Assembly (NCBI GenBank): GCA_019120595.1
Contig: DWUV01000063.1
Span: 1-35,186 of the forward strand
DNA length: 35,186 bases
Source of the DNA: Candidatus Mediterraneibacter tabaqchaliae
Lineage (GTDB): Bacteria; Bacillota; Clostridia; Lachnospirales; Lachnospiraceae
Direction of reading: 5' to 3'
Under the pieces are notes generated by a model. That model ran no database searches and was not told the origin of the DNA. It saw only the letters and a list, made by a program, of their open reading frames with translations. The position numbers and the translations under genes were made by a program. Positions 19,505 to 32,085 of this stretch are shown here, in pieces. Position 1 is the stretch's first letter. Each line of letters opens with the position of its first letter.

Positions 19505-20125
19505 TTATCTCATCAGCAGCCTGATCAGTATCAGGATGGCAGCAAATAGAAAGATTATTTTCCCAAACAGCTCTCCGCCCATGTGGAATTCCTCAAATTC
19601 CCTGGGCATGTTGAAGATATCCGGGTCTCTCCTGTGCTCTTTCAGCTGAAAGTCCTCTATGTAATGTTTCCAACCGCTCCTGTCCGTATAGACGCTGACC
19701 CGGTCAGAGGCAAGATACCGGTGGACAGGTATCCGGTAGCCCTGGCTCTGGATCGTACTTGCCGCTCCGGTCGCAGGGTCATACATTTCCACCTGAAGGA
19801 AATAATATCTGCGGTACCTGAGCGTATGATGCTCACCCGTCGTATAGGGCACATCCTGCCTTGCGATGCCTGTGATCCGTCCCTGGGACACATCGCCCAG
19901 CGCCACTGCTTCCGCTCTCTGGCGACGGTAAAACAGCGCCCTTCTCACATTATTGACCGCAGTGTACGGCATGAGCAGACCCGCCGCAAGAAAGACAAGC
20001 AGAAACGGATCAAAGCCTGCCGCCGCGATACTTCGGATCAGGACCGAGTACCACACGGCCGTAAATACAATTGCAGGTATCACCCCACTGATCTCTTCTT
20101 CCGCCGGTCTGATCTTTCTCTTCAT
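19505..20125 (-). CDS. membrane protein of unknown function (DUF3592-like layout)
   Basis: 206 residues. Two N-terminal membrane helices (about 14-37 and 42-62), a central extramembrane domain rich in Tyr/Arg (about 65-170, with GRITGIARQDVPYTTGEHHTLRYRRYYFLQVEMYDPATG) and one C-terminal helix (about 184-203, KIIFLFAAILILIRLLM). The topology and the beta-rich middle with 'V-x-Y/tag-x-G' turns resemble DUF3592-type proteins, but I cannot assign it firmly. GGGAGGAT lies before the ATG, and an extended -10 is at 20220-20228. It is the first gene before rarA. Function unknown. Confidence 0.75.
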   Translation of the reverse strand: MKRKIRPAEEEISGVIPAIVFTAVWYSVLIRSIAAAGFDPFLLVFLAAGLLMPYTAVNNVRRALFYRRQRAEAVALGDVSQGRITGIARQDVPYTTGEHHTLRYRRYYFLQVEMYDPATGAASTIQSQGYRIPVHRYLASDRVSVYTDRSGWKHYIEDFQLKEHRRDPDIFNMPREFEEFHMGGELFGKIIFLFAAILILIRLLMR

Positions 20126-20219
20126 CTCAGTATCCTCCCACGTTCTTTCACATAATCCCCGTTCATATTATTTACAGGTTCTAAAAAACGATTTTTTGTA
20201 ATGATGTTTTTACAGGTAC

Positions 20220-20228
20220 ATTATAACA
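20220..20228 (-). promoter_or_regulatory. extended -10 promoter of the 206-aa membrane protein gene
   Basis: TGTTATAAT on the minus strand (TG-N-TATAAT) about 95 nt before the ATG at 20125. No good -35 is found at 16-18 bp, which is tolerable for extended -10 promoters. Confidence 0.5.
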
Positions 20229-20286
20229 GATTCTCTTCGACAGATATAGAGAATAAATCCCTTCGTCCGGTGTCGTTCCTTTTACG

Positions 20287-20335
20287 AAAGAGAGACAGCT
20301 GCACTTATCCGTACTCAGTGCTGCTGTCTCTCTTT
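20287..20335 (-). terminator. terminator of pnp
   Basis: AAAGAGAGACAGC pairs perfectly with GCTGTCTCTCTTT (13 bp). After one mismatch a further 5 bp (GCACT/AGTGC) stack on top. It lies about 80 nt after the pnp stop. The T-run beyond the stem is short in the reverse direction (TTT within the stem) and a little better in the forward one. The GAGAGAC/GTCTCTC sequence recalls the terminator at 5494. Confidence 0.65.
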
Positions 20336-20415
20336 TAAACTCTCTTTATCTTTGATCGGATCTCCGCAGGATGAATGTCCCTGTCACCGCTGTCCCGGCA
20401 ACAGTTTCTCCTCTT

Positions 20416-22503
20416 TTACTCAGCTACATCGCGGATGCTGAAGCTGAACCTGCCCATCTTATCCTTGCCCAGGCATACAGCCTTCACTACATCGCCCAGC
20501 TTGAGCACATCCTCGACCTTGTCCACTCTCTTCTTCGCGATCTTGGAGATGTGTACCAGACCTTCCTTGCCCGGAGCGAACTCAAGGAATGCGCCGAAGT
20601 CTTTGATGCTTACGACCTTTCCTTCGAATACCTGTCCCGCCTCAAAATCTGTCACGATCGTATGGATCAGCTTGGCTGCCTTATCCATGCCTTCTTTCTC
20701 TGTGCCGCAGATGGATACGGAACCGTCATCCTCGATATCGATCTTCACGCCGGTCATATCGATGATCGCGTTGATCGTCTTTCCTCTCTGTCCGACTACA
20801 TCGCCGATCTTCTGCGGATCGATCTGCATCTGGATGATCTTCGGAGCGTACGGTCCGACTTCCGGCCTCGGCTCTGCGATCGCCTTGTTCATAACCTCAT
20901 CGATAATGTAGGTCCTTGCCTTCTTCGTCGCAGCGATCGCTTCCTCGATGATCGGTCTTGTCAGTCCGTGGATCTTGATATCCATCTGGATCGCTGTGAT
21001 CCCTTTATGTGTACCTGCGACCTTGAAGTCCATATCTCCGAAGAAATCTTCCAGTCCCTGGATATCCGTGAGTACCAGGTAATCATCATCTGTATCCCCT
21101 GTCACCAGACCTGCGGAGATACCGGCCACCGCGGATCTGATCGGCACGCCCGCTGTCATAAGGGACATACTGGACGCGCACACACTTGCCTGGGAAGTAG
21201 ATCCGTTGGACTCAAATGTCTCAGAGACCGTGCGGATCGCATACGGGAACTCCGCCTCGCTCGGAAGTACCGGAAGAAGCGCTCTCTCGGCAAGCGCCCC
21301 GTGTCCGATCTCTCGGCGTCCCGGTCCTCTCGACGGCTTTGTCTCGCCTACGGAGTAGGACGGGAAATTATAGTGGTGCATATATCTCTTTGACGTCTCT
21401 GCCTCATCCAGCCCGTCCAGTCTCTGTGCCTCGGACAGCGGAGCAAGTGTGGTCACAGTGCAGATCTGTGTCTGCCCTCTCGTAAACATGGCGGATCCGT
21501 GTACTCTCGGGATCAGGTCCACCTCCGCCGCAAGCGGGCGGATCTCGTCAATGGCACGTCCGTCCGGGCGCTTGTGGTCTTTTAAGATCATCTTTCTCAC
21601 GGTCTTTTTCTGATACTGGTAAACAGCCTCGCCCAGAACTTCCAGCCATTCTTCTTTGTCTGCGAATGCCTCTTCCAGTTTTTCCGTGATCTGGCGGATA
21701 TTCTCTTCCCTTGTCTGCTTGTCATCCGTGAAGACCGCCTCTTCCATTTCTTCCGGCGGGACGATTTCTTTGATGGCATCGAACAGCTCCTGCGGTACTG
21801 CGCAGCTCTTATAGCTGTGCTTCGGCTTTCCGCATTCCGCGACAATGGTGTCAAAGAATGCGATCACTTTCTGGTTCAGCTCATGAGCCGCAAAGATCGC
21901 CTCGATCATCTTGTCCTCAGGAACTTCATTTGCTCCCGCTTCGATCATGATGACTTTTTCCTTTGTGGAAGCCACGGTCAGCGCCAGGTCAGATACCTCT
22001 CTCTGAGCCGCTGTCGGGTTAAAGACGAACTCTCCGTCTACCAGGCCTACCTGGGTCGTGGAGATCGGTCCGTCAAACGGGATGTCGGAAATACTTGTGG
22101 CGATGGAAGCGCCAAGCATCGCTGTCAGCTCGGGGCTGCAGTCCTGCTCCACGGACATGACCAGGTTTTCCAGAGTCACGTCGTTTCTGTAATCTTTCGG
22201 GAAAAGAGGGCGCATCGGGCGGTCGATGACACGGTCCGTCAGGATCGCGTTCTCAGAAGCCTTTCCCTCTCTTTTATTGAAGCCGCCCGGGATCTTTCCT
22301 ACCGCATAAAGTCTCTCATTGTACTCAACGCTTAACGGGAAGAAATCGATCCCGTCTCTTGGTTTCTCTGATGCCGTCGCAGTACAGAGCACCGTCGTCT
22401 CTCCATAGTGCATGAGCACAGCGCCGTTCGCCTGCTTTGCCACTCTGCCAACATCGACGCGCAGCGTCCTGCCGGCGAGTTCCATTTCATACTTTTTGTA
22501 CAT
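20416..22503 (-). CDS. pnp: polyribonucleotide nucleotidyltransferase (PNPase)
   Basis: 695 residues, the full usual length. Two RNase PH domains are visible: the first with AVLMHYGETTVLCTATAS and RPMRPLFPKDYRNDV, the second with DGRAIDEIRPLAAEVDLIPRVHGSAMFTRGQTQ and SNGSTSQASVCASSMSLMTAGVPI. They are joined by the alpha-helical linker. A KH domain (about 555-610, IGDVVGQRGKTINAIIDMTG) and an S1 domain (about 620-690, GQVFEGKVVSIKDFGAFLEFAPGKEGLVHISKIA) bind RNA. The enzyme degrades RNA 3' to 5' with phosphate in the cytoplasm. It has its own promoter and a long leader hairpin, and is separated from rpsO by the catabolic cassette. AAGGAG lies 6 nt before the ATG. Confidence 0.98.
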   Translation of the reverse strand: MYKKYEMELAGRTLRVDVGRVAKQANGAVLMHYGETTVLCTATASEKPRDGIDFFPLSVEYNERLYAVGKIPGGFNKREGKASENAILTDRVIDRPMRPLFPKDYRNDVTLENLVMSVEQDCSPELTAMLGASIATSISDIPFDGPISTTQVGLVDGEFVFNPTAAQREVSDLALTVASTKEKVIMIEAGANEVPEDKMIEAIFAAHELNQKVIAFFDTIVAECGKPKHSYKSCAVPQELFDAIKEIVPPEEMEEAVFTDDKQTREENIRQITEKLEEAFADKEEWLEVLGEAVYQYQKKTVRKMILKDHKRPDGRAIDEIRPLAAEVDLIPRVHGSAMFTRGQTQICTVTTLAPLSEAQRLDGLDEAETSKRYMHHYNFPSYSVGETKPSRGPGRREIGHGALAERALLPVLPSEAEFPYAIRTVSETFESNGSTSQASVCASSMSLMTAGVPIRSAVAGISAGLVTGDTDDDYLVLTDIQGLEDFFGDMDFKVAGTHKGITAIQMDIKIHGLTRPIIEEAIAATKKARTYIIDEVMNKAIAEPRPEVGPYAPKIIQMQIDPQKIGDVVGQRGKTINAIIDMTGVKIDIEDDGSVSICGTEKEGMDKAAKLIHTIVTDFEAGQVFEGKVVSIKDFGAFLEFAPGKEGLVHISKIAKKRVDKVEDVLKLGDVVKAVCLGKDKMGRFSFSIRDVAE

Positions 22504-22534
22504 GTTGTTCTCCTTTATTTACTCGTTTTCTTTC

Positions 22535-22625
22535 GCGGACAGATGTCACCGAAACTACTGAAAAAAACATCAGCCCGGATGCTGATATGCTTTTCAGTGG
22601 TCTCGGGTACTCTTAAGCCGTCCGC
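22535..22625 (-). ncRNA. pnp 5' leader long hairpin (cis-acting)
   Basis: The leader RNA folds into one long arm. GCGGAC pairs with GTCCGC at the base; after an internal loop, CCGAGACCACTGAAAA pairs with TTTTCAGTAGTTTCGG (16 positions, one mismatch); the top is ATCAGC/GCTGAT. It starts within about 15 nt of the expected transcription start and ends about 31 nt before the ATG. In E. coli, a double-stranded pnp leader is cut by RNase III and then attacked by PNPase for autoregulation. This structure is placed for the same job; that it works so here is inference. Confidence 0.65.
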
Positions 22626-22635
22626 AATCTTATAT

Positions 22636-22664
22636 ATTATAGCATATGCCTTTTTGTTAGGCAA
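22636..22664 (-). promoter_or_regulatory. sigma-A promoter of pnp
   Basis: TTGCCT (22664-22659), 17 bp, TATAAT (22641-22636) on the minus strand. The -35 begins immediately after the T-run of the upstream operon's terminator. Confidence 0.8.
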
Positions 22665-22760
22665 TAAAAAAGAACTGCCGTTAAAATTTTTCGAATGGCG
22701 CGGGCCGGTCCGGTGGTCTTCCCCCGGCAGCCCGGCGCCATCCCTGCTTCTAACGGCAGT
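22665..22760 (-). terminator. large terminator of the catabolic operon
   Basis: On the minus strand ACTGCCGTTA pairs perfectly with TAACGGCAGT, followed by TCTTTTTTATT. Inside the loop, ATGGCGC pairs with GCGCCAT and encloses a GC-rich segment. It sits about 75 nt after the uxaB-like stop, so it isolates pnp from the cassette. Confidence 0.75.
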
Positions 22761-22835
22761 CCCATATTTTTATCCGATATCCGGTCTGGTATTTCCCCGG
22801 AAATTTTCTGTGCCGTCCTTTCGACGGACACGCTG

Positions 22836-24329
22836 CTACAGGCAGGATGCAAAAGCAGCCAGCGCGCCTTTCTCCCGGATCAGCTTCAGATTATCGGCTG
22901 TAAGTGTTTCGAATCCTTCGATCCGCGTCAGGTCCTGTCCCCACATCTGCTCATCCGTCATCACTGCATGGACCAGATCTTCGGCGGAGTCCTTTCTGTG
23001 ATCCCAGTAAAACTCCAGTACCCAGCGGTCATCCGAGCACACATAGGTGTTTCCCTTCGCCCGGCGGCAGACCAGGCCTTTGTCGTTTAACTCCTGGATG
23101 TCATTTGTGTAAAATGCGATATACGCCGCAAAGCTCATGGCCAGGCAGGACGGGATCTTCCCTTCCAGCCCGATGTAGTCCAGCAGGCTGGGCAGATTCC
23201 TTGCCCGCCACTTGGAAGTCGAGTTCAGGGAGATGCTCATCAGCTCGTGATCCACGAACGGGTTGTTGAAGCGGTCCTGCACCGCGCCGGCAAATTCCAT
23301 CAGATCCTTCTTGTCCAGCGGAAGTGTGGGGATGATCTCCTCGTAGAGCATCTGGTTCATGAACCCGCGGACCGTATCGTCCGCCATGCAGTCGCGGACG
23401 ATATCAAAGCCGCCCAGATAAGCTCCCAGGACAAATCCCGTGTGTGCGCCGTTTAAGATCCTTACCTTTCTCTTCTTGTAAGGAGTCACATCCGGCACGA
23501 CGATGCAGTTTACCCCTGCCTTTTTAAAGGGCAGCTTTTCCTCGAGCCACTGCGGGCCTTCGATATTCCATACGCCGAACACTTCGCCCACGTCGAGAAG
23601 CTGATCCCTGTATCCGTTCTCCGACTCCAGCTTCCCCGCCTCCTCAGCGTCTTTGATCCGGCCGGGAACGATGCGGTCCACCAGAGTAGAGCAGAATGTG
23701 CAGTCTTCGGAGACATATTTCCGGAAGTCCTCTTCCAGTCCCCACTGGCTGATGTACTGCTCCACGCACTTTAACAGTTCTTTTCCGTTGTTGTCGATGA
23801 GCTCGCAGGAAAGGATCACAAGCCCGCTTTTGCCCGCTTTATACCTTGCGTACAGCACCTGCGTCAGTTTCCCGGGGAAGGAACTGCACGGCTCATCTTC
23901 CATCCGGCACTCCGGGTCATAGACGATCCCAGCCTCCGTTGTATTGGATACAATGTACTCCAGATCGTCGGATACTGCCAGCTCCATCATCGCGTCGAAT
24001 CCTTCTTTTTCATACGGATTGACACAGCGGGAAACAGAAGAAATCACGCGCTTTCTGTCCACTTTTTCCCCGTTTTCCCTGCCGCGCAGATAGAGGGTGT
24101 AGAGTCCTTCCTGGGCATTGATCATATCGGTCAGTCCCTGGGGGATCGGCTGCACGAGCACGCACTTTCCGTTCCATCCCGCCTTTTCGTTGGCTACGTC
24201 AAACCAGTAGTCAACAAACGCGCGCAGGAAATTTCCTTCGCCGAACTGCATCACCTTCTCCGGCGCCGACTCTAAAACATACCCCTCGTAACCGGATTTC
24301 TTAAGCACCTCATAATTTAAAAGCTCCAT
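22836..24329 (-). CDS. uxaB: tagaturonate reductase / altronate oxidoreductase (UxaB-like)
   Basis: 497 residues of the polyol-specific long-chain dehydrogenase family. The N-terminal nucleotide-binding part has VMQFGEGNFLRAFVDYWFDVANE, typical of UxaB. SNTTEAGIVY and STLVDRIVPGR are shared by UxaB/UxuB/MtlD proteins. The catalytic stretch KVRILNGAHT carries the K-x(4-5)-N-x-x-H pattern. The known UxaB reaction is NADH-dependent reduction of D-tagaturonate to D-altronate in hexuronate breakdown. No UxaC isomerase is present in the cluster; instead an LgoD-like dehydrogenase gene precedes it, suggesting tagaturonate comes from L-galactonate. AAAGGTG lies upstream of the ATG. It is the last gene of the four-gene operon. 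Fructuronate or mannitol as substrate is possible but less likely. Confidence 0.85.
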   Translation of the reverse strand: MELLNYEVLKKSGYEGYVLESAPEKVMQFGEGNFLRAFVDYWFDVANEKAGWNGKCVLVQPIPQGLTDMINAQEGLYTLYLRGRENGEKVDRKRVISSVSRCVNPYEKEGFDAMMELAVSDDLEYIVSNTTEAGIVYDPECRMEDEPCSSFPGKLTQVLYARYKAGKSGLVILSCELIDNNGKELLKCVEQYISQWGLEEDFRKYVSEDCTFCSTLVDRIVPGRIKDAEEAGKLESENGYRDQLLDVGEVFGVWNIEGPQWLEEKLPFKKAGVNCIVVPDVTPYKKRKVRILNGAHTGFVLGAYLGGFDIVRDCMADDTVRGFMNQMLYEEIIPTLPLDKKDLMEFAGAVQDRFNNPFVDHELMSISLNSTSKWRARNLPSLLDYIGLEGKIPSCLAMSFAAYIAFYTNDIQELNDKGLVCRRAKGNTYVCSDDRWVLEFYWDHRKDSAEDLVHAVMTDEQMWGQDLTRIEGFETLTADNLKLIREKGALAAFASCL

Positions 24330-24379
24330 TGTTCTTTCACCTTTCTTCTGTCAAATCCTCATATCAAAACCTTCTCTGG

Positions 24380-25435
24380 TCAAAACTCGGAAAAATCCAG
24401 GACGACTTTCAGCATTTCCGCCCCGTTTTTATCAAACTCGGCAAACGCTTCTGCAGCCTTGTCCGCAGGATACATGTTTGTGATCACCCTGCCCAGGTCC
24501 GCCCTTCCTGCATTGACCAGATCGATCAGCTCGACGAAATCCTTCTTTAAGGCATTGCGGCTCCCGAATACATTCAGCTCTTTCTTCTGGATCAGCGTAA
24601 AATTAAAGTCCAGGTTCTTCTTGCCCACGCCGATCAGCACGACTTTGCCGCCGAAGGCCGCGGCGTCGATGCAGTTCTGGAATGTAGACGGCAGGCCCAC
24701 CGCCTCGATGCACACGTCAAAACCGTAGGCATTTGCATTGCCGCGGATATCGATCTGTCCGGTGATGTCTGCCACCGCTTTTTCCAGCGCCTCAGGGGAC
24801 TCATTCAGGATCATGCCGTCAAATCCGAAATTGTCCATGGCATAGCGCAGCTTCTTTTCCGCTACATCGCACATATAGACTTCTCCGCCCAGTGCCTTTG
24901 CAGCGCATCCCGCCAGCACGCCGATGGTGCCCGCTCCGATGACAAGGACTTTGTCGCCTTTTTTGATCCCGGCTCTCTGCACGCCGTGATAGCTGATGCA
25001 GAACGGCTCTATGGCTGCCAGCAGCTTCGGATCCAGTCCTTTGCCGTCATAGATCCGCTCCAGCGGCATCGTGATGTATTCGCAGAAAGCGCCGTCCCTC
25101 TGGCATCCCATGGTCTGATTGTCCATGCACGCATTGACGATCCCTCTCTCGCAGCTGTAGCAGCTGCCGCAGTTAAAGTAGGGGTTGCAGGTAACGATCA
25201 TCCCCTCTTTCAGTCCGTACTCATTCTCATCGACTTCTACGATCTCCGCGCTGAACTCATGTCCCGGGATGCGTGGATAGTCAAAATATGCAAATGTCCC
25301 CCTGTAGGATCCCAGGTCGCTCCCGCAGATCCCCCCGTAGAGGATCTTTAAAAGAGCTTCCCCCGGTTTCCTTACCGGTTTTTCGATCTCCCGGATCTCC
25401 ACGTGTCCGGGTTCTGTGATATAGATTGCTTTCAC
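24380..25435 (-). CDS. zinc-dependent MDR alcohol dehydrogenase, L-galactonate 5-dehydrogenase (LgoD)-like
   Basis: 351 residues. GTG start at 25435 with AGGAGG about 7 nt upstream. The catalytic zinc ligands are in GGICGSDLGSYRG and IPGHEF. The structural zinc lobe is complete: CGSCYSCERGIVNAC (CxxCxxCx7C). The NAD fold is VLVIGAGTIGVLAG, and IEPFCISYHGVQRAGI is typical of polyol dehydrogenases. The late segment FGSRNALKKDFVELIDLVNAG resembles the GSRNA-T-EDF segment of E. coli LgoD (YjjN), which oxidises L-galactonate to D-tagaturonate. That would feed the UxaB-like enzyme encoded 50 nt downstream. L-idonate, sorbitol or galactitol-phosphate as substrate are alternatives. The family is firm; the substrate is inferred from context. 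Confidence 0.85.
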   Translation of the reverse strand: MKAIYITEPGHVEIREIEKPVRKPGEALLKILYGGICGSDLGSYRGTFAYFDYPRIPGHEFSAEIVEVDENEYGLKEGMIVTCNPYFNCGSCYSCERGIVNACMDNQTMGCQRDGAFCEYITMPLERIYDGKGLDPKLLAAIEPFCISYHGVQRAGIKKGDKVLVIGAGTIGVLAGCAAKALGGEVYMCDVAEKKLRYAMDNFGFDGMILNESPEALEKAVADITGQIDIRGNANAYGFDVCIEAVGLPSTFQNCIDAAAFGGKVVLIGVGKKNLDFNFTLIQKKELNVFGSRNALKKDFVELIDLVNAGRADLGRVITNMYPADKAAEAFAEFDKNGAEMLKVVLDFSEF

Positions 25436-25486
25436 GGTTCTTCCTCCTGTCTTTTATGATCTGTTTTCTTTTTCAGCCGTTTAGAC

Positions 25487-26692
25487 TCAGCGGTCTGCGT
25501 CGATATATTTTTCGTTCCAGATGACCGCGGTCTTCATGGGCGCGCTCTTGGAATAGATCTTATTTTCATAAGCCCCGATGGGATCTTCGGCAAACTCGCC
25601 TTTATCAATGAGCTCTACGATCTCGTCATAGCAGCTCTTCTCAAGGATGCGGATCGCCTCCTCCATATGGTCCTGGCGGAAATTAATGGAGCCGAAGATC
25701 ACCTGGTTCTTAAAGCCGAAGGGCATGGTGTCAAAGGAGACCACCGGGCCTAAGGAGAAGGAATTGTAGATCCCGTTGCATCCCAGCACGCCGTACTGAA
25801 ACGCGATCTCCTGCTCGATCCCCGCGCCGCTGGATCCGATGAACACGGTAGCCGTGCCGCCCAGCTTATCCGTGATCGCTTTCGCCAGCTCTTCTTTTGT
25901 GTCAAAATTGCTCTTTACATAATCTGCCTTTGCCTGCTTCAGGGCAAACGAAACCTTCGGGCTGTCCTCATCGCTCCTCGCCACAAAGACGATCTTTGCC
26001 TCCGGATATTTCTGCCGGATCAGGTCTCCGATGAACATCCCCGTGGTGCCAAGGCCGAAGACGCATACCCTCTGGAATGTCTCTTTTCTCGCGATCTCAC
26101 GCGCCTCTGTCTCCGAGCATTTGTACTGCGCCATCTTTACCCGGAAGTTGTGCGCCTCGCCAAGATCTTCCATGCGCTCTCTCTGGAAGATCATGCAGGC
26201 ATAGGGATCGCTGAACACCAGTTTTTTTGCCAGGGAAAGGGCGATCTTTCCGTCCTTTACATACCCGTCCGGGATCTTCAGGAGCATGTCAGGATTGTAA
26301 TAATCCATATCCGAGAACAGGCCGTCCGCCTGGTCGCATCCGTACTCAAAATAATCCTCTTCCTCCGTATACCGGGTAGGGTCATAGCTGTTCCCCCCGC
26401 GGATCAGGACAATGGCAAAGCGGTTCTCCGACGGCACCCATACCACGCCTTCGTGTCCGTTGATCAGGCGGTCACATCCCGGCGGGAATTTGGCATTTAA
26501 CTCCCCTTTGCGTCCCATCTCCATCAGAGTATGGTCTGTCCCGCAGAATCCGACCAGTACGCTCTCCGCCAGGATCCCTTCCTTCTCTTCCTCTCCTCTG
26601 AGCCTTCTCCTCGGGATATTGTGGATCTCCACATCCCCGTATACAAGAGGCCTGTCTTCACTGTTCTGAAAATATGTACCTTTTACGATCAT
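25487..26692 (-). CDS. atypical glucose-dehydrogenase-like MDR oxidoreductase
   Basis: 401 residues. The N-terminal GroES-like part has the zinc cysteine in SVLVGFCGTDHTLME and the histidine-glutamate pair in INGHEGVVWV. The structural lobe that normally holds CxxCxxCx7C is replaced by RGGNSYDPTRYTEEEDYFEYGCDQADGLFSDMDYYNPDML. The NAD(P) fold is VCVFGLGTTGMFIGDLI. The end IFGSINFRQDHMEEAI recalls the C-terminus of archaeal-type glucose 1-dehydrogenases (SVNA-x5-A pattern). Those enzymes oxidise aldoses at C1 to lactones, which fits the lactonase-like gene 30 nt upstream. AGGAGG lies 7 nt before the ATG. The true sugar is unknown. An insert rich in lysine and charged residues before the NAD fold (about 170-205) is also unusual. 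Confidence 0.75.
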   Translation of the reverse strand: MIVKGTYFQNSEDRPLVYGDVEIHNIPRRRLRGEEEKEGILAESVLVGFCGTDHTLMEMGRKGELNAKFPPGCDRLINGHEGVVWVPSENRFAIVLIRGGNSYDPTRYTEEEDYFEYGCDQADGLFSDMDYYNPDMLLKIPDGYVKDGKIALSLAKKLVFSDPYACMIFQRERMEDLGEAHNFRVKMAQYKCSETEAREIARKETFQRVCVFGLGTTGMFIGDLIRQKYPEAKIVFVARSDEDSPKVSFALKQAKADYVKSNFDTKEELAKAITDKLGGTATVFIGSSGAGIEQEIAFQYGVLGCNGIYNSFSLGPVVSFDTMPFGFKNQVIFGSINFRQDHMEEAIRILEKSCYDEIVELIDKGEFAEDPIGAYENKIYSKSAPMKTAVIWNEKYIDADR

Positions 26693-26722
26693 ATTAAATC
26701 CTCCTAATAGTTAATTGCCGGG

Positions 26723-27601
26723 TCATTCCACCATGTTGATCATCTTATCCGGGACTGCCAGTTTCGGGAATCCGTAAAACTTCTCCGCGTTTTCACCCAG
26801 GAATTTTCTCTTTTCCTCGTCTGACAGCTCTGTTGTCTTCTCCACGAAATCCTTGCTCATGTCATAAGTGATCGCTGTCATTGTCCTCGGGTAGTCGCTG
26901 CCCCACATCAGTTTGTCTATGCCGCAGATATCGATGGCAGTGCGGATCGCCCTCACCGCTGACGGATACGGATAGAACTCCCTGTGAAAGAGCCATGTGA
27001 TGCCGCCGCTCTCGATATAGACATTTTTATGCTTTGCAAGAGCGATCTGCTTCTCCCAGCCGTCCACTGTGACCATGCCGAAATGTCCCACCGCGATGCG
27101 CAGGTCCGGGTGTCTTCCGATCAGCTCCTCCAAGGCGTCTGTCTGCAGATCCCCGTCCGCCATGTCAATGGCAACGAATTTTCCCAGACGCTCCGCCTGT
27201 GCGAAGACTTCCTCGTGGGCAAGAAGATCTTGATTATCCAGCCTGCCCCCGCAGATCTTTACGCCGTCAAACCGGGACATCCATTCGTCCGCGATCGGTT
27301 TCTCCTCATACAGACAGGTGATCCGCATCCGGTCCGGGTATTTCTCCTTACACTCCAGAAGATAACTGTCCTGACTGCCGTCTATATATTCCTGTGTGAT
27401 CACACAGCCGCTGACCCGCGCGTAATCCATATTTGCCATCAGCATTTCCACGGTATTGCGGCCGTCAAGCATATAGGGCGGCATCATCTGTCTCAGTTCG
27501 CCGCCGAAATCGCTCCTCCCGCCGGTAAGCGGGATCACCGGTTTTCCGTTCACACGGCCTGCCTGAGGGTTCCATAAGTGTGCATGTGCATCAATGATCA
27601 T
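26723..27601 (-). CDS. amidohydrolase family 2 protein, probable sugar lactonase
   Basis: About 292 residues from the ATG at 27601. AGGAGGAG sits just upstream; the track's start adds 7 residues containing the ribosome site. It is a TIM-barrel metal hydrolase: MIIDAHAHLW (HxH metal pair at the start), DGVKICGGRL (strand carrying a lysine), RIAVGHFG (histidine) and LMWGSDYPRTMT (catalytic aspartate at the end of the barrel). Family members in sugar pathways hydrolyse L-fucono-, L-rhamnono- or L-galactono-lactones; others are decarboxylases (ACMSD-like). Being first in an operon with three sugar-type dehydrogenases, a lactonase is the best reading. It is divergent from the AraC-family regulator, with 138 nt between them. 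Confidence 0.85.
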   Translation of the reverse strand: MIIDAHAHLWNPQAGRVNGKPVIPLTGGRSDFGGELRQMMPPYMLDGRNTVEMLMANMDYARVSGCVITQEYIDGSQDSYLLECKEKYPDRMRITCLYEEKPIADEWMSRFDGVKICGGRLDNQDLLAHEEVFAQAERLGKFVAIDMADGDLQTDALEELIGRHPDLRIAVGHFGMVTVDGWEKQIALAKHKNVYIESGGITWLFHREFYPYPSAVRAIRTAIDICGIDKLMWGSDYPRTMTAITYDMSKDFVEKTTELSDEEKRKFLGENAEKFYGFPKLAVPDKMINMVE

Positions 27602-27637
27602 ATAACTCCTCCTTCTGACCATATTTTTCTCTCAATC

Positions 27638-27667
27638 TTGCTTTCATTATATCTCCTGTGGTACGAT
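27638..27667 (+). promoter_or_regulatory. candidate promoter of the AraC-family regulator
   Basis: TTGCTT (27638-27643), 18 bp, TACGAT (27662-27667) on the plus strand, about 72 nt before the regulator's ATG. It overlaps the -10 of the divergent operon, so the two directions may compete. Confidence 0.4.
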
Positions 27668-27674
27668 GAAGATA
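27646..27674 (-). promoter_or_regulatory. candidate promoter of the catabolic operon
   Basis: TATAAT (27651-27646) on the minus strand, 45 nt before the lactonase-like ATG. The hexamer 17 bp upstream is TATCTT, a poor -35. That fits a promoter needing an activator such as the divergent AraC-type protein. Confidence 0.5.
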
Positions 27675-27739
27675 CATCAAAATCAGACAATTACGGTATA
27701 TCCGTGTCCGATAAGCGTACTTTGAGAGGAGCATCTTCT

Positions 27740-28609
27740 ATGAAAAATGACAATCTGAACATTACCTTCTCAATAGGGAAATATATGATCACGATCCTGA
27801 AATTTACTTATGAATGCCAGACCTGGAATACCCCGTCCCATTCCCACAGCTCCAACAGCTATGAGCTCCACTATATCCCCCAGGGAAAGGGGACATTGAT
27901 CAGCAGCCAGAAGTCCTACGCCCTGTATCCCAATGTCCTGTATACGACCGGTCCCCATATCGAGCACCAGCAGTATCCGGACCCTTCTGATCCAACCTAT
28001 GAATACTGCATTTATCTGAGGATCGAGGAGCCCCATGCAAAGCAGCGCAGAAAAAATCTGGACCGGGAAACTATCATGGATATGTTTTTAAACTACCCGT
28101 TCTGGTACGGAACTGACCACGCGGAACTCCCGGTCACTCTGGAACAGATCCGGCAGGAGATCTTTGATCCAAGGCCGGGCGGAGCACTGATGCTCGAAGC
28201 GCTGTTTATCCAGTTCATGGTCAAGGTCCTGCGCAACTATAAACCTGCATCCAAAGCCGCGATCACATCGATCCCGATCCCCCTGATCAAAGCCTATATC
28301 CTGATCGAGGACAGTTTCCTTTTAGAATATGACACGATCACGCTTGAAGAGCTGTCACGGAGACTGGGCTTGAGCACCCGTCAGACCAGCAGGGTCTTAT
28401 TTGACAGATACGGGCAGAATTTCACTCAGAAGCGGACCGAAGCGAGGATGGCGGCAGCGGCGACCTTTTTAAAAGAGGGCAGGCTCTCCGTCTCCGAGAT
28501 CGCGTCCAGGCTGGGCTACTCCTGTCCGAACCATTTTCACGCAGCGTTCAAAAAGTATTATCAAATGACTGCCACGGAATATAAGAACCGGTATCTGGAC
28601 AGACCGTGA
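27740..28609 (+). CDS. AraC family transcriptional regulator
   Basis: 289 residues from the ATG at 27740 (GAGAGGAG 8-9 nt upstream; the track's frame begins 54 codons earlier without a ribosome site). The N-terminal half (about 1-150) looks like a cupin sensor domain: WNTPSHSHSSNSYELHYIPQGKGTLISSQKSYALYPNVLYTTGP carries the HxH region and the beta turns of sugar-sensing AraC proteins. The C-terminal half holds two helix-turn-helix units, ITLEELSRRLGLSTRQTSRVLFDRYG and LSVSEIASRLGYSCPNHFHAAFKKYYQMTATEYKNR. It is transcribed away from the four dehydrogenase/lactonase genes and very likely controls them in response to the substrate or an intermediate. It ends before a bidirectional terminator shared with rpsO. 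Confidence 0.92.
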   Translation: MKNDNLNITFSIGKYMITILKFTYECQTWNTPSHSHSSNSYELHYIPQGKGTLISSQKSYALYPNVLYTTGPHIEHQQYPDPSDPTYEYCIYLRIEEPHAKQRRKNLDRETIMDMFLNYPFWYGTDHAELPVTLEQIRQEIFDPRPGGALMLEALFIQFMVKVLRNYKPASKAAITSIPIPLIKAYILIEDSFLLEYDTITLEELSRRLGLSTRQTSRVLFDRYGQNFTQKRTEARMAAAATFLKEGRLSVSEIASRLGYSCPNHFHAAFKKYYQMTATEYKNRYLDRP

Positions 28610-28649
28610 AAGCGGTGTTCCGCGACAGGCCATAGATCAAAAAACATCA

Positions 28650-28697
28650 AAAAAAGCGCCGGCTGCATGGAAATCCATTTGCCGCCGGCGCTTTTTT
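28650..28697. terminator. bidirectional terminator between araC-type gene and rpsO
   Basis: A-tract, GCGCCGGC, a loop with a small inner ATGGA/TCCAT stem, GCCGGCGC, then TTTTTT. The stem is perfect, GC-rich and flanked by A6/T6, so it should stop transcripts from both strands: the regulator on plus and rpsO on minus. Confidence 0.85.
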
Positions 28698-28723
28698 CAT
28701 CCTGTTCCTTACCCGATCCCGGA

Positions 28724-28990
28724 TTATTTTCTAAGTCCGAGTCTCTCGATCAGGGAACGATATCTCTCGATATCTACTTTCTTAAGGTATGCAAGAAGTC
28801 CTCTTCTCTGACCTACCATCTTAAGAAGTCCTCTTCTTGAGTGGTGATCCTTCGGGTTAGCCTTGAAGTGCTCTGTGAGCTCATTGATCCTTGCTGTCAG
28901 GATCGCTACCTGTACCTCCGGTGAACCTGTGTCACCCTCGCTTCTTCCATACTCTTTGATGATTGCCTGTTTCTTGTCTTTTGCGATCAT
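28724..28990 (-). CDS. rpsO: 30S ribosomal protein S15
   Basis: 88 residues, the exact usual length. The sequence [73 protein letters not shown] carries the conserved GDTGSPEVQ and HSRRGLL..V..RR..L.YL signatures. S15 binds the central domain of 16S rRNA early in small-subunit assembly. It has its own promoter and a structured leader. A strong AAGGAGGAG precedes the ATG. In many bacteria pnp follows directly; here a catabolic cassette lies between the two. Confidence 0.98.
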
Positions 28991-29024
28991 GCTTTGTCTC
29001 CTCCTTAAATATACTCTGGTAACC

Positions 29025-29072
29025 GCCTGGCATTAAGCGATGGCTGGAGTCTTCCGATCACCGAACGCCGGC
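29025..29072 (-). ncRNA. rpsO leader hairpin, candidate S15 autoregulatory element
   Basis: The leader RNA folds as GCC-GGCGUU-(C)-GGUGAU, loop, AUCGCU-(U)-AAUGCC-(A)-GGC: about 15 pairs including G-U wobbles, with a possible small GGA/UCC stem at the top. It ends about 20 nt before the AAGGAGG of rpsO. S15 leaders in several phyla bind the protein and block translation, with unrelated folds in different groups. A regulatory role here is inferred from position and structure only. Confidence 0.45.
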
Positions 29073-29091
29073 TGATTGTGTAACCTCAGCT

Positions 29092-29120
29092 AGTATAGCA
29101 CAGCACACTGTGGTTGTAAA
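29092..29120 (-). promoter_or_regulatory. sigma-A promoter of rpsO
   Basis: TTTACA (29120-29115), 17 bp, TATACT (29097-29092) on the minus strand, giving a leader of about 95 nt before the rpsO ATG. Confidence 0.7.
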
Positions 29121-29154
29121 GAAAATTTTCAATGACTGTATGCCAGTCTGTATG

Positions 29155-30060
29155 TCAGTTTTTTAAGCTTCGATCTTTAAAGAAATCGATCCCGTACTGC
29201 ATGTCCTTCATGACCTGCTCTTTCAGCTCTTCCACAGAGCCGAATTTCACCTCCGGGCGTTCAAACCCGCAGAACCGGACCGTCACTTCTTTGCCGTAGG
29301 CATCTCCCTCATATCCGTAGACATAGACTTCAAAAAGCCGCCTGCGCTCATCCGTGACCGTGGGCTTGACCCCGGCGTTTCCCACGCCGTTGTACCACTC
29401 TCCGTCGATCTTCACCCGGCAGGCATAGACTCCGTACCTGGGGAGGATCTTCTGCGCTTCCGGCTCCACATTCATCGTCGGGAATCCCAGCGTCCGCCCG
29501 AGCTGTTTCCCGTGGCGGACAGGCCCGGTGAGTTCATAAGGGTAGCCCAGGAGCCGCTCCGCGAGCCGGACGTCCCCCTGCGCGAGGGCATCCCGGATAT
29601 AGGTGCTGCTGATGATCATATCCCCGTACCGCTCCTTTTCCACCACATCCACGGTATAGCCATATTGAGGGGCATATCGTTCCAGCATCTCCACGCTCCC
29701 GCGCTTATTGTGCCCGAAAGCAAAGTCCCTGCCCACGACGATATGGGCCGCGTTTAATCCCGCGCACAGGATGTCCCGGATAAAGTCTTCCGCCTCCATA
29801 TTCCTGAGCGTCTCTGTAAACGGACAGTCGATCAGGCAGTCGATCTTCCCCTCCAGATGCTCCCTGCGCTCCCGGTTCGTCATGATCGCATCCCTGTGCA
29901 TGTCAAAAGCGCAGAGCACACTGTCGCATTCATCGGAGGCATAGTCCCTTATTTTATCCACCAGTTTCTGATGCCCCCTGTGGAGTCCGTCAAACTTCCC
30001 TATGGTTACTGCCGTCTTTTTTGTCCCGTGATAATTTTCTATTCCTGTAATATAATCCAT
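29155..30060 (-). CDS. ribF: bifunctional riboflavin kinase / FAD synthetase RibF
   Basis: 301 residues. The N-terminal FAD-synthetase domain (about 1-180) has VTIGKFDGLHRGHQKLVDKI with the HxGH-like nucleotidyltransferase motif, and VVGRDFAFGHNKRGSVEML and ISSTYIRDALAQGDV. The C-terminal riboflavin kinase domain (about 183-300) has GPVRHGKQLGRTLGFPTMNVEPE and YGVYACRVKIDGEWYNGVGNAGVKPT. It makes FMN from riboflavin and then FAD. It follows truB by 7 nt, in the infB-rbfA-nrnA-truB-ribF operon. The FAD-dependent enzyme at 8117 would use its product. Confidence 0.97.
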   Translation of the reverse strand: MDYITGIENYHGTKKTAVTIGKFDGLHRGHQKLVDKIRDYASDECDSVLCAFDMHRDAIMTNRERREHLEGKIDCLIDCPFTETLRNMEAEDFIRDILCAGLNAAHIVVGRDFAFGHNKRGSVEMLERYAPQYGYTVDVVEKERYGDMIISSTYIRDALAQGDVRLAERLLGYPYELTGPVRHGKQLGRTLGFPTMNVEPEAQKILPRYGVYACRVKIDGEWYNGVGNAGVKPTVTDERRRLFEVYVYGYEGDAYGKEVTVRFCGFERPEVKFGSVEELKEQVMKDMQYGIDFFKDRSLKN

Positions 30061-30067
30061 GCCTGCC

Positions 30068-31060
30068 TCATCTGTCCTTTTTCTCTGTTTTGCCTGCGCT
30101 CAGTCCATCGGGATCAAGGAACATTTTTTCCAGCCGGAACTGCCCCCGTTTTCCCTCGTACCGATAGATGCCAATGAACCGTTCCCGGCTGTCATATACG
30201 CGGAATCTTTCCCCGTCTGCCGGTCCCGCGGCACAGCTTTTCTGTTCCGGGGCTCCGGCAGGTTCCGCTCCGCCCGGCTGCCGTATGACATGTTTCAGAC
30301 AGAAAGGATTTCCGTTATATCCGAGAGAGACTGCCCCGTCCTTTAAAACCACCTGCCTCAATTCAGGAAATACACTGTCCAGGGGAAGGAGGATCTGTGA
30401 CAGGTTCCCATTCTTTGCGTGGTCCTCCACGTCTGCCAGCCGCAGGCTCTCTTCCAGGCGGAATCTTCCCACGCGTGTGCGGAGCAGTGACTCCATGCAT
30501 CCTCCCACGCCCAGCTTCTCTCCGATATCATGGCAGAGCGTGCGGATATAAGTTCCTTTGGAGCAGTCCACTTCCATGCGCACACGCGGGAGAAAGACTT
30601 CCTTCACCCGGATGTCATGGATGAGGACTTTCCTGCTCCTACGCTCTACGGTCTTTCCTTCCCTTGCCAGTTCATAGAGCTTTTTCCCGCCCACTTTCAG
30701 TGCGGAATACATGGGCGGGATCTGGTCGTATTCCCCGATAAAACTCCGGATACATCCCAGCACATCCTCCTCTGTGACACCCGCTGTCTGCCGTTCGGCC
30801 AGGACAGCGCCCGAGATGTCCTGAGTGTCTGTCGTCTTCCCGAGGAGCAGGACCGTCTCGTAAGTCTTGTCCTTATCCGTGAGCAGGTCGCAGACCTTTG
30901 TCGCCCTGCCCAGACAGACAGGAAGCACCCCCTCCGCATCGGGATCGAGGGTGCCTGTATGTCCGATCTTCTTCTGTCCCACGATGCCCCTCAGGCGGGC
31001 GACAACATCGTGGGAAGTCCATCCTTTTTCTTTATAAATATTCAGAATCCCGTTGATCAT
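30068..31060 (-). CDS. truB: tRNA pseudouridine(55) synthase TruB
   Basis: 330 residues. MINGILNIYKEKGWTSHDVVARLRG and KKIGHTGTLDPDAEGVLPVCLGRATK contain the catalytic aspartate of the TruB family. DKTYETVLLLGKTTDTQD, YSALKVGGKKLYELAREG and CSKGTYIRTLCHDIGEKLG are further conserved blocks. It makes pseudouridine 55 in the T-loop of tRNAs. The C-terminal part has a Gly/Ala/Pro-rich stretch (PGGAEPAGAPEQKSCAAGPADG, about 268-289) before the final beta-strands, longer than usual and probably a loop insertion. It lies between nrnA (23-nt gap) and ribF (7-nt gap). Confidence 0.97.
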   Translation of the reverse strand: MINGILNIYKEKGWTSHDVVARLRGIVGQKKIGHTGTLDPDAEGVLPVCLGRATKVCDLLTDKDKTYETVLLLGKTTDTQDISGAVLAERQTAGVTEEDVLGCIRSFIGEYDQIPPMYSALKVGGKKLYELAREGKTVERRSRKVLIHDIRVKEVFLPRVRMEVDCSKGTYIRTLCHDIGEKLGVGGCMESLLRTRVGRFRLEESLRLADVEDHAKNGNLSQILLPLDSVFPELRQVVLKDGAVSLGYNGNPFCLKHVIRQPGGAEPAGAPEQKSCAAGPADGERFRVYDSRERFIGIYRYEGKRGQFRLEKMFLDPDGLSAGKTEKKDR

Positions 31061-31083
31061 TCTCTTCTCATCCTGTCACTTCT

Positions 31084-32085
31084 CTATTCCTGCGGTGATC
31101 CGCTGCCGCTGTGGTCGAGCTGCAGCGCGATCCTGGCTGTGATATTGTTGATCACATCGTGGCTGGAGCCGCTCATCGTGACTCCTGCCGCGCGCACATG
31201 CCCGCCGCCGCCGAAATGCTTCGCGATCACGCTGACATCCACCGCGCCCTTTGAGCGCAGGCTGACCTTGAACTTCTGGGGCTCGATCTCATGGAGAAAG
31301 ATCGCCACTTCTACCCCTTTCGTCTGGCGCAGCTGGCTTACGATCCCCTCCAGGTCAGCGGGCTGTGCCTGGAAGAACCGCATGGACCGCTGGCGGATCA
31401 CAGAGACAATGCAGCGCTTATCCATGATAAGCATGCTCTCCAGGAGCGCGCGCCCCAGGATCTGGTTCTGGATGTACGTTTTCTCATAGTATGTCTTCTC
31501 AATGATCTCACTGCCGTTGATGCCTTTGCGCATCAGCTCCGCCGCGATCTCCATAGTCTCCGGGGAGGTGCAGGAATACTGGAACACGCCGGTATCGTGC
31601 ACGATTCCCATGTAGAGTGCTTCCGCCACTGCTTTGCTGATCTTTTCTTTCTCAGTCAGCCGAAAGATCAGCTCTGATGTAGAACTGGAGTCAGGGACAA
31701 TATAATTATAGTCTGCAAACGCATCATTGCTGATATGATGGTCAATGCACAGTGTCTCAGCGGCAGCCTCAAATAACGGCTCCGAAAAGCCCAGGCGCTT
31801 TGCGTCCCCGCAGTCCAGGCAGATAAAAAGATCATACGGCCCCGTCCCGTCAGGGATCTGCGTCTTCACTTCGTCCGTCCCGCTGATCATACGGTATGCC
31901 TCCGGCACATCTTCCAGATAGACATCCGTATGGATGTGCGGGAACTGTTCTTTCAGATAGAGATACAGACCCATACAGGATCCGACACAGTCGCCGTCCG
32001 GGCGGACATGCCCGCCCAGTGCGACGCTGCGCTTGTCTTTTAAGATATCTTCTAATACAATCGTCATATCAATCTTCAGCTCCAT
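31084..32085 (-). CDS. nrnA: DHH-family nanoRNase / PAP phosphatase NrnA
   Basis: 333 residues. The DHH domain shows ALGGHVRPDGDCVGSCMG (DxD motif), FICLDCGD and CIDHHISNDAFADYNYI (DHH motif). The C-terminal DHHA1 domain ends with FGGGGHVRAAG (GGGH). NrnA degrades 2-5-nt RNAs and, in related proteins, pAp to AMP; some relatives cleave pGpG or c-di-AMP products. It lies between rbfA and truB as in many Firmicutes. The chosen ATG overlaps rbfA by 17 nt. A second ATG at 32067 sits just after the rbfA stop but is farther from its GGAG. Confidence 0.95.
   Translation of the reverse strand: MELKIDMTIVLEDILKDKRSVALGGHVRPDGDCVGSCMGLYLYLKEQFPHIHTDVYLEDVPEAYRMISGTDEVKTQIPDGTGPYDLFICLDCGDAKRLGFSEPLFEAAAETLCIDHHISNDAFADYNYIVPDSSSTSELIFRLTEKEKISKAVAEALYMGIVHDTGVFQYSCTSPETMEIAAELMRKGINGSEIIEKTYYEKTYIQNQILGRALLESMLIMDKRCIVSVIRQRSMRFFQAQPADLEGIVSQLRQTKGVEVAIFLHEIEPQKFKVSLRSKGAVDVSVIAKHFGGGGHVRAAGVTMSGSSHDVINNITARIALQLDHSGSGSPQE

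Follow-up and report, generated by a model that had tools for sequence, protein, structure and literature searches.

A conserved operon of gut and rumen Clostridia probably encodes a medium-chain L-galactose 1-dehydrogenase

The described L-galactose 1-dehydrogenases LguA, BVU_0219 and Arabidopsis GalDH are, as we take it, aldo/keto reductases (N-terminus of LguA, METRKLGNTGLDVSV). They group in one cluster and act at the head of the pathway for L-galactose (PMC12632266), in which LguD, LguC and LguB of Luteolibacter catalyse the C5 oxidation of L-galactonate, the reduction of tagaturonate and the dehydration of altronate (PMC12632266). C5 oxidation to tagaturonate, a tagaturonate reductase and an altronate dehydratase are common to Luteolibacter (lguABCDEF) and E. 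coli (lgoD/uxaB/uxaA). Here we describe a locus of Candidatus Mediterraneibacter tabaqchaliae, lying in the window (the whole stretch of 35,186 nucleotides that was analysed), which would share these steps with both systems but differs in its first enzyme, in having a separate lactonase gene and, in many of its relatives, a mutarotase homologue. The predicted first reaction is that of LguA, BVU_0219 and GalDH, whereas the protein is a medium-chain dehydrogenase (MDR), a fold unrelated to theirs. We consider it probable (about 0.68) that this 401-aa MDR is a zinc- and nicotinamide-dependent L-galactose 1-dehydrogenase heading an L-galactose pathway. The features of the locus are as follows.

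22836–24329, minus strand: UxaB-like tagaturonate reductase, predicted to convert D-tagaturonate to D-altronate (NF002969, 556.5 bits, cut-off 359)
24380–25435, minus strand: zinc MDR with a structural lobe (MDR2), predicted NAD+-dependent L-galactonate 5-dehydrogenase (34% identity to LgoD; ADH_N, 82.7 bits)
25487–26692, minus strand: predicted L-galactose 1-dehydrogenase, the 401-aa MDR, archaeal-glucose-dehydrogenase-like (profile, alignment, model and neighbours)
26723–27601, minus strand: COG3618-like amidohydrolase (AmH), predicted L-galactono-1,5-lactonase (Amidohydro_2, 130 bits; fold matches; co-occurrence)
27740–28609, plus strand: divergent AraC-family regulator (AraC_binding, HTH_18)

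The start of AmH was placed at the conserved MIIDAH at 27601, the listed ORF extending to 27622, and that of the regulator at the MKNDNL start conserved in relatives, the longest ORF beginning at 27578. AmH, the 401-aa MDR, MDR2 and UxaB all point the same way and are separated by 30, 51 and 50 bp. The operon and the AraC gene are inserted between rpsO (28724–28990, minus strand) and pnp (20416–22503, minus strand), which are usually neighbours (window positions 20416–28990); in close relatives (loci L003–L005), pnp also follows soon after the cluster. A search for RNA families in 20000–31500 returned none.

The gene at 25487–26692 starts with ATG, encodes 401 aa, and is real and conserved. 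Scanning genome contigs revealed 165 stretches encoding relatives, of which 80 were retained, so that at least 80 relatives exist at 67–99% identity. Most of the hosts belong to Lachnospiraceae or to other Clostridia living in gut and rumen (among them Roseburia inulinivorans and Lachnoclostridium sp. An76), and two are Treponema metagenome-assembled genomes. Full clusters with about 70% identity stand on these two Treponema-labelled contigs (L021 and L055), which suggests either transfer from Clostridia or misbinned contigs. The family is rare, since the gene was present in 5 of 299 genomes of the taxonomic family (all matches above 700 bits, with no intermediates) and, in a phylum-wide sample of 399 genomes, in the window's own genome only. 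No relative was found in the viral contigs and plasmids searched, and a search of the open-access literature found no paper on the family.

To place the protein, profiles and a structure model were compared. Neither Pfam nor NCBIfam could name it, as nothing scored above a cut-off: the best Pfam signal was Glu_dehyd_C (PF16912) at 24.1 bits, below the cut-off of 34.9, NCBIfam gave no match, and ADH_N (PF08240) gave none at E ≤ 1, with a PF08240 search of the own genome missing the gene too. In a profile search against the PDB, its sole matches were the glucose dehydrogenases (GDHs) of Haloferax mediterranei and Sulfolobus solfataricus. The AlphaFold model (pLDDT 83, pTM 0.84) has the MDR fold, not that of an aldo/keto reductase; the top Foldseek matches were all MDRs, and the first two were again the Haloferax and Sulfolobus enzymes. 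Thus, the protein belongs to the medium-chain dehydrogenases and comes closest to archaeal GDHs, at 16–19% identity, and since the MDR fold is present, we read the missing ADH_N match as a limit of sensitivity. The sequence-only reading had proposed superposing a predicted structure on such GDHs, and the model bears out the proposed kinship, while the zinc and sugar sites discussed below rest on alignments. Its suggestion that the protein represents an MDR subfamily apart, with a distinct aldose specificity, likewise gains from the tight conservation, the lack of an NCBIfam model and the dedicated operon.

In an alignment of 24 members, Cys50 (GFCGTD), His80-Glu81 (NGHEG) and the GxGxxG glycines (G213xG215xxG218) are invariant, in agreement with the earlier statement that the N-terminal zinc cysteine and the GHE are kept. 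The CxxCxxCx7C lobe had been reported missing, and its cysteine pattern is indeed absent from 24 of 24 members; no Cys or His is conserved between Arg98 and Glu116, and Cys119 is the sole invariant Cys near the lobe position. The sister MDR at 24380–25435 does keep its lobe, as had been noted, with Cys89/92/95/103 invariant in its own family. The whole of YTEEEDYFEYGCDQADG had been taken as the replacement of the lobe, which holds only for residues ~99–113, about five residues fewer than in Sulfolobus GDH; YFEYGCDQADG aligns without gaps with the post-lobe strand of both archaeal enzymes (GEFGEAGIHKMDG and MYFERGIVGAHG), placing Glu116 opposite Glu114. As regards a substitute structural metal site made of other residues, Asp104, Glu112, Cys119, Asp120 and Asp123 are invariant near the lobe position, but residues 102–111 have a pLDDT below 50 in the model.

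Sulfolobus GDH 1 (PDB 2cd9, 2cdb) shares the MDR fold, has Cys39 and GHE opposite Cys50 and GHE, and Glu114 and Asn307 opposite Glu116 and Asn337, but it bears lobe cysteines 93, 96, 99 and 107, none of which the 401-aa MDR has, and is only ~16% identical. Haloferax GDH (PDB 2b5w, 2b5v) has the MDR fold without lobe cysteines, an FE(114)xG opposite FE(116)YG, and a similar C-terminal GSVN/GSIN segment; it differs in its ~19% identity over the structural alignment, in its wild-type Asp38 in place of the family's Cys50 (2b5w is the D38C mutant), in a longer lobe stretch and in the different gene neighbours that are to be expected. The expectation that glucose dehydrogenases normally retain a zinc lobe is therefore not general, because the Haloferax segment has no lobe cysteine, and since this enzyme is the top structural match, loss of the lobe is ruled out as what is new about the protein.

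The C-terminal likeness to GDHs seen by the sequence-only reading survives in part: Asn337 of INFRQDH, invariant like Glu116, aligns with Sulfolobus Asn307, but the likeness is weak, as the sub-threshold Glu_dehyd_C score indicates. Glu114 and Asn307 of the archaeal enzyme are presumably the residues that contact glucose, so Glu116 and Asn337 would lie where archaeal GDHs bind the sugar. The catalytic zinc would be held by Cys50, His80, Glu81 and probably Asp162; Asp162-Pro163 is invariant, stands at a helix start in the model, and is probably the counterpart of the Glu-Pro that many MDRs use, among other residues, to bind this zinc. Behind its second Rossmann strand, the 401-aa MDR has VARS, without an acidic residue, as does Sulfolobus GDH, which was solved with NADP, whereas the sister MDR has an Asp at the matching position (MCDVAEKK). 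Judged by this residue, the cofactor is probably NADP+ for the 401-aa MDR and is predicted to be NAD+ for the sister.

The gene neighbourhood is conserved as well. Among 46 relative loci with at least 15 kb, scored by tblastn because the ORF caller fails in G+C-rich loci, AmH was present in 44, MDR2 in 40, a homologue of L-fucose mutarotase in 28 (129.5 bits on the L-fucose mutarotase model, cut-off 141), AraC in 25, UxaB in 24 and UxaA in 22, and the divergent AraC gene adjoins the cluster in many loci. Across the 299 family genomes, the 401-aa MDR and a close AmH (>490 bits) occur in exactly the same five, a coincidence with a probability of ~5e-11 if genomes are taken as independent, a figure that kinship makes too small. 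In the family genomes without the 401-aa MDR, a search for another dehydrogenase beside AmH gave one distant AmH (119 bits, genome G215), with no recognised cluster genes adjoining. The search for homologues and their neighbours, which had been proposed earlier, thus yields a conserved operon with AmH, MDR2 and UxaB, and this operon points to L-galactose, whereas the sequence-only reading had named no substrate.

Given these conserved neighbours, L-galactose is the substrate we favour, because C5 oxidation of L-galactonate gives D-tagaturonate, which fits UxaB and UxaA. The 401-aa MDR would oxidise L-galactose, probably with NADP+, to L-galactono-1,5-lactone, and AmH would hydrolyse the lactone to L-galactonate. 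The best PDB matches of the AmH model are COG3618-type lactonases; its fold matches comprise 4i6k, 4dlf/4do7 (COG3618, Burkholderia multivorans) and 2ffi, and include 2-pyrone-4,6-dicarboxylate lactonases. We take the target of 4dlf/4do7 to be L-fucono-1,5-lactonase, presumably also accepting L-galactono-lactone. MDR2 would then oxidise L-galactonate at C5 to D-tagaturonate; it shares 34% identity with E. coli LgoD along its full length, and since MDR2 and LgoD score nearly alike on the IolM and PRK10083 models, its substrate is not fixed by family models. UxaB would reduce D-tagaturonate to D-altronate, and altronate dehydratase (D-altronate to KDG) and KDPG aldolase, both encoded elsewhere in the genome, would complete the route together with a presumed KDG kinase. 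The window's own operon has neither UxaA nor mutarotase, whose homologues lie elsewhere: a UxaA on contig C113 is 58% identical to the operon UxaA of L005, and a member of the KDPG aldolase family is found on contig C117. A separate hexuronate cluster in the same genome (L098, contig C113) combines uronate isomerase, UxaA and another UxaB, while a uronate isomerase is missing from the conserved neighbours of the 401-aa MDR, which argues that the UxaB of the window serves something else, namely tagaturonate from another source.

Two groups of loci depart from the usual arrangement. In R. inulinivorans (L007 and L153), the pair of AmH and 401-aa MDR adjoins fucI (FucI, 1017.7 bits), and the orthologue of MDR2 (77%) is found at another site, as part of an operon with the order MDR2-TRAP transporter-UxaB-UxaA, as expected for use of L-galactonate. 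The gene order of this second operon resembles that of a hexonate uptake operon. In five other loci (L052, L061, L069, L071 and L081), the usual place of MDR2 after the 401-aa MDR is taken by an Fe-ADH_2 gene, given here for L069; AmH is the next gene in those contigs that show it.

L069, 9202–10569: Fe-ADH_2 protein of ~454 aa, glycerol-1-phosphate-dehydrogenase-like

MDR2 has no match in four of the five genomes, and in the fifth its only matches are 30% paralogues. This complementary distribution suggests that the Fe-ADH_2 protein does the job of MDR2 and is a candidate second, unrelated L-galactonate 5-dehydrogenase. Somewhat less firmly than the assignment of the 401-aa MDR itself, we favour the wider proposal that L-galactose 1-dehydrogenases form a second family, unrelated to the first and made up of MDRs and not aldo/keto reductases, which heads a dedicated pathway of gut and rumen Clostridia, and that either a zinc MDR or an Fe-ADH-type enzyme can perform the C5 step of this pathway.

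Other substrates have to be weighed against L-galactose. The main rival, which we regard as unlikely, is that the protein is an L-fucose (6-deoxy-L-galactose) 1-dehydrogenase of the non-phosphorylating L-fucose pathway, with L-galactose as a side substrate. The mutarotase homologue, the GH29 genes of some neighbourhoods (7 of 80 loci, 34–69% identical to the copy in L077) and the adjacency of AmH and the 401-aa MDR to fucI in R. inulinivorans speak for it, but all three fit L-galactose equally well. The two sugars differ solely at C6. Tagaturonate reductase and altronate dehydratase act on sugar acids with a 6-hydroxyl group, so that UxaB and UxaA favour a 6-hydroxy sugar, and by established chemistry a 6-deoxy product could not receive a C6 phosphate from KDG kinase. 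Moreover, the neighbours include no recurrent seventh enzyme family of the kind of L-fuconate dehydratase, and R. inulinivorans holds the remaining set as an L-galactonate-like operon.

That the enzyme oxidises a different aldose (L-glucose, D-arabinose or D-glucose), after the manner of the archaeal GDHs, appears less likely still. Its nearest solved relatives are glucose dehydrogenases, and one Luteolibacter gene set serves both L-glucose and L-galactose (PMC12632266), but no recurrent extra gene of the cluster would fit a 5-keto-L-gluconate 4-epimerase, and no sign of the LguG epimerase was seen there. D-glucose would not yield tagaturonate, and conservation with UxaB and UxaA favours the galacto configuration. 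We consider it very improbable that the locus encodes a modified form of the inositol pathway of Thermotoga, with an IolM-like MDR2, a hydrolase and tagaturonate, the 401-aa MDR being a cyclitol dehydrogenase. IolM is the best NCBIfam model of MDR2 (171 bits, cut-off 450), but this match is unspecific, with E. coli LgoD reaching 193 bits likewise. The Thermotoga pathway also passes via D-tagaturonate, yet a sugar mutarotase and a COG3618-type lactonase would be of no obvious use for a cyclitol, and the 401-aa MDR resembles glucose dehydrogenases, not inositol dehydrogenases.

Possible sources of the sugar also bear on the substrate; they comprise the GH29 genes beside the cluster and GH95 enzymes, of which the latter lend weak support to L-galactose. 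The Bacteroides ovatus GH95 enzyme BACOVA_03438 frees L-galactose from corn xylan and has Thr370 in place of the fucosidase His419 (PMC4491172). Seven strong GH95 domains are encoded in the window's genome, and one of them carries Thr at the discriminating position (KYTTNIN; L107, contig C94, 19249–20466, in an open frame of ~1,700 aa) and is, by this residue, a candidate alpha-L-galactosidase. Thr-type GH95 proteins also occur in two other genomes (G089 and G006), that is, in 3 of 5 genomes with the 401-aa MDR versus 4 of 39 without it (one-sided Fisher P = 0.023, in a test picked after the operon was known and with several incomplete draft genomes).

If the assignment holds, this would be a non-orthologous replacement of L-galactose dehydrogenase, as the known enzymes are aldo/keto reductases: L-galactose oxidation, earlier assigned to the aldo/keto-type family only, would gain an unrelated MDR enzyme, and Clostridia would match the chemistry of Luteolibacter with a non-homologous first enzyme. 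A family without an NCBIfam model would obtain a substrate and a name, and the cluster would become a genomic marker of L-galactose use. The protein would also be a bacterial sugar dehydrogenase of the archaeal-GDH-like kind that functions without the structural zinc lobe. Since an enzyme of the gut liberates L-galactose, a rare plant sugar, from corn xylan (PMC4491172), bacteria living in people and in animals fed on corn should encounter it.
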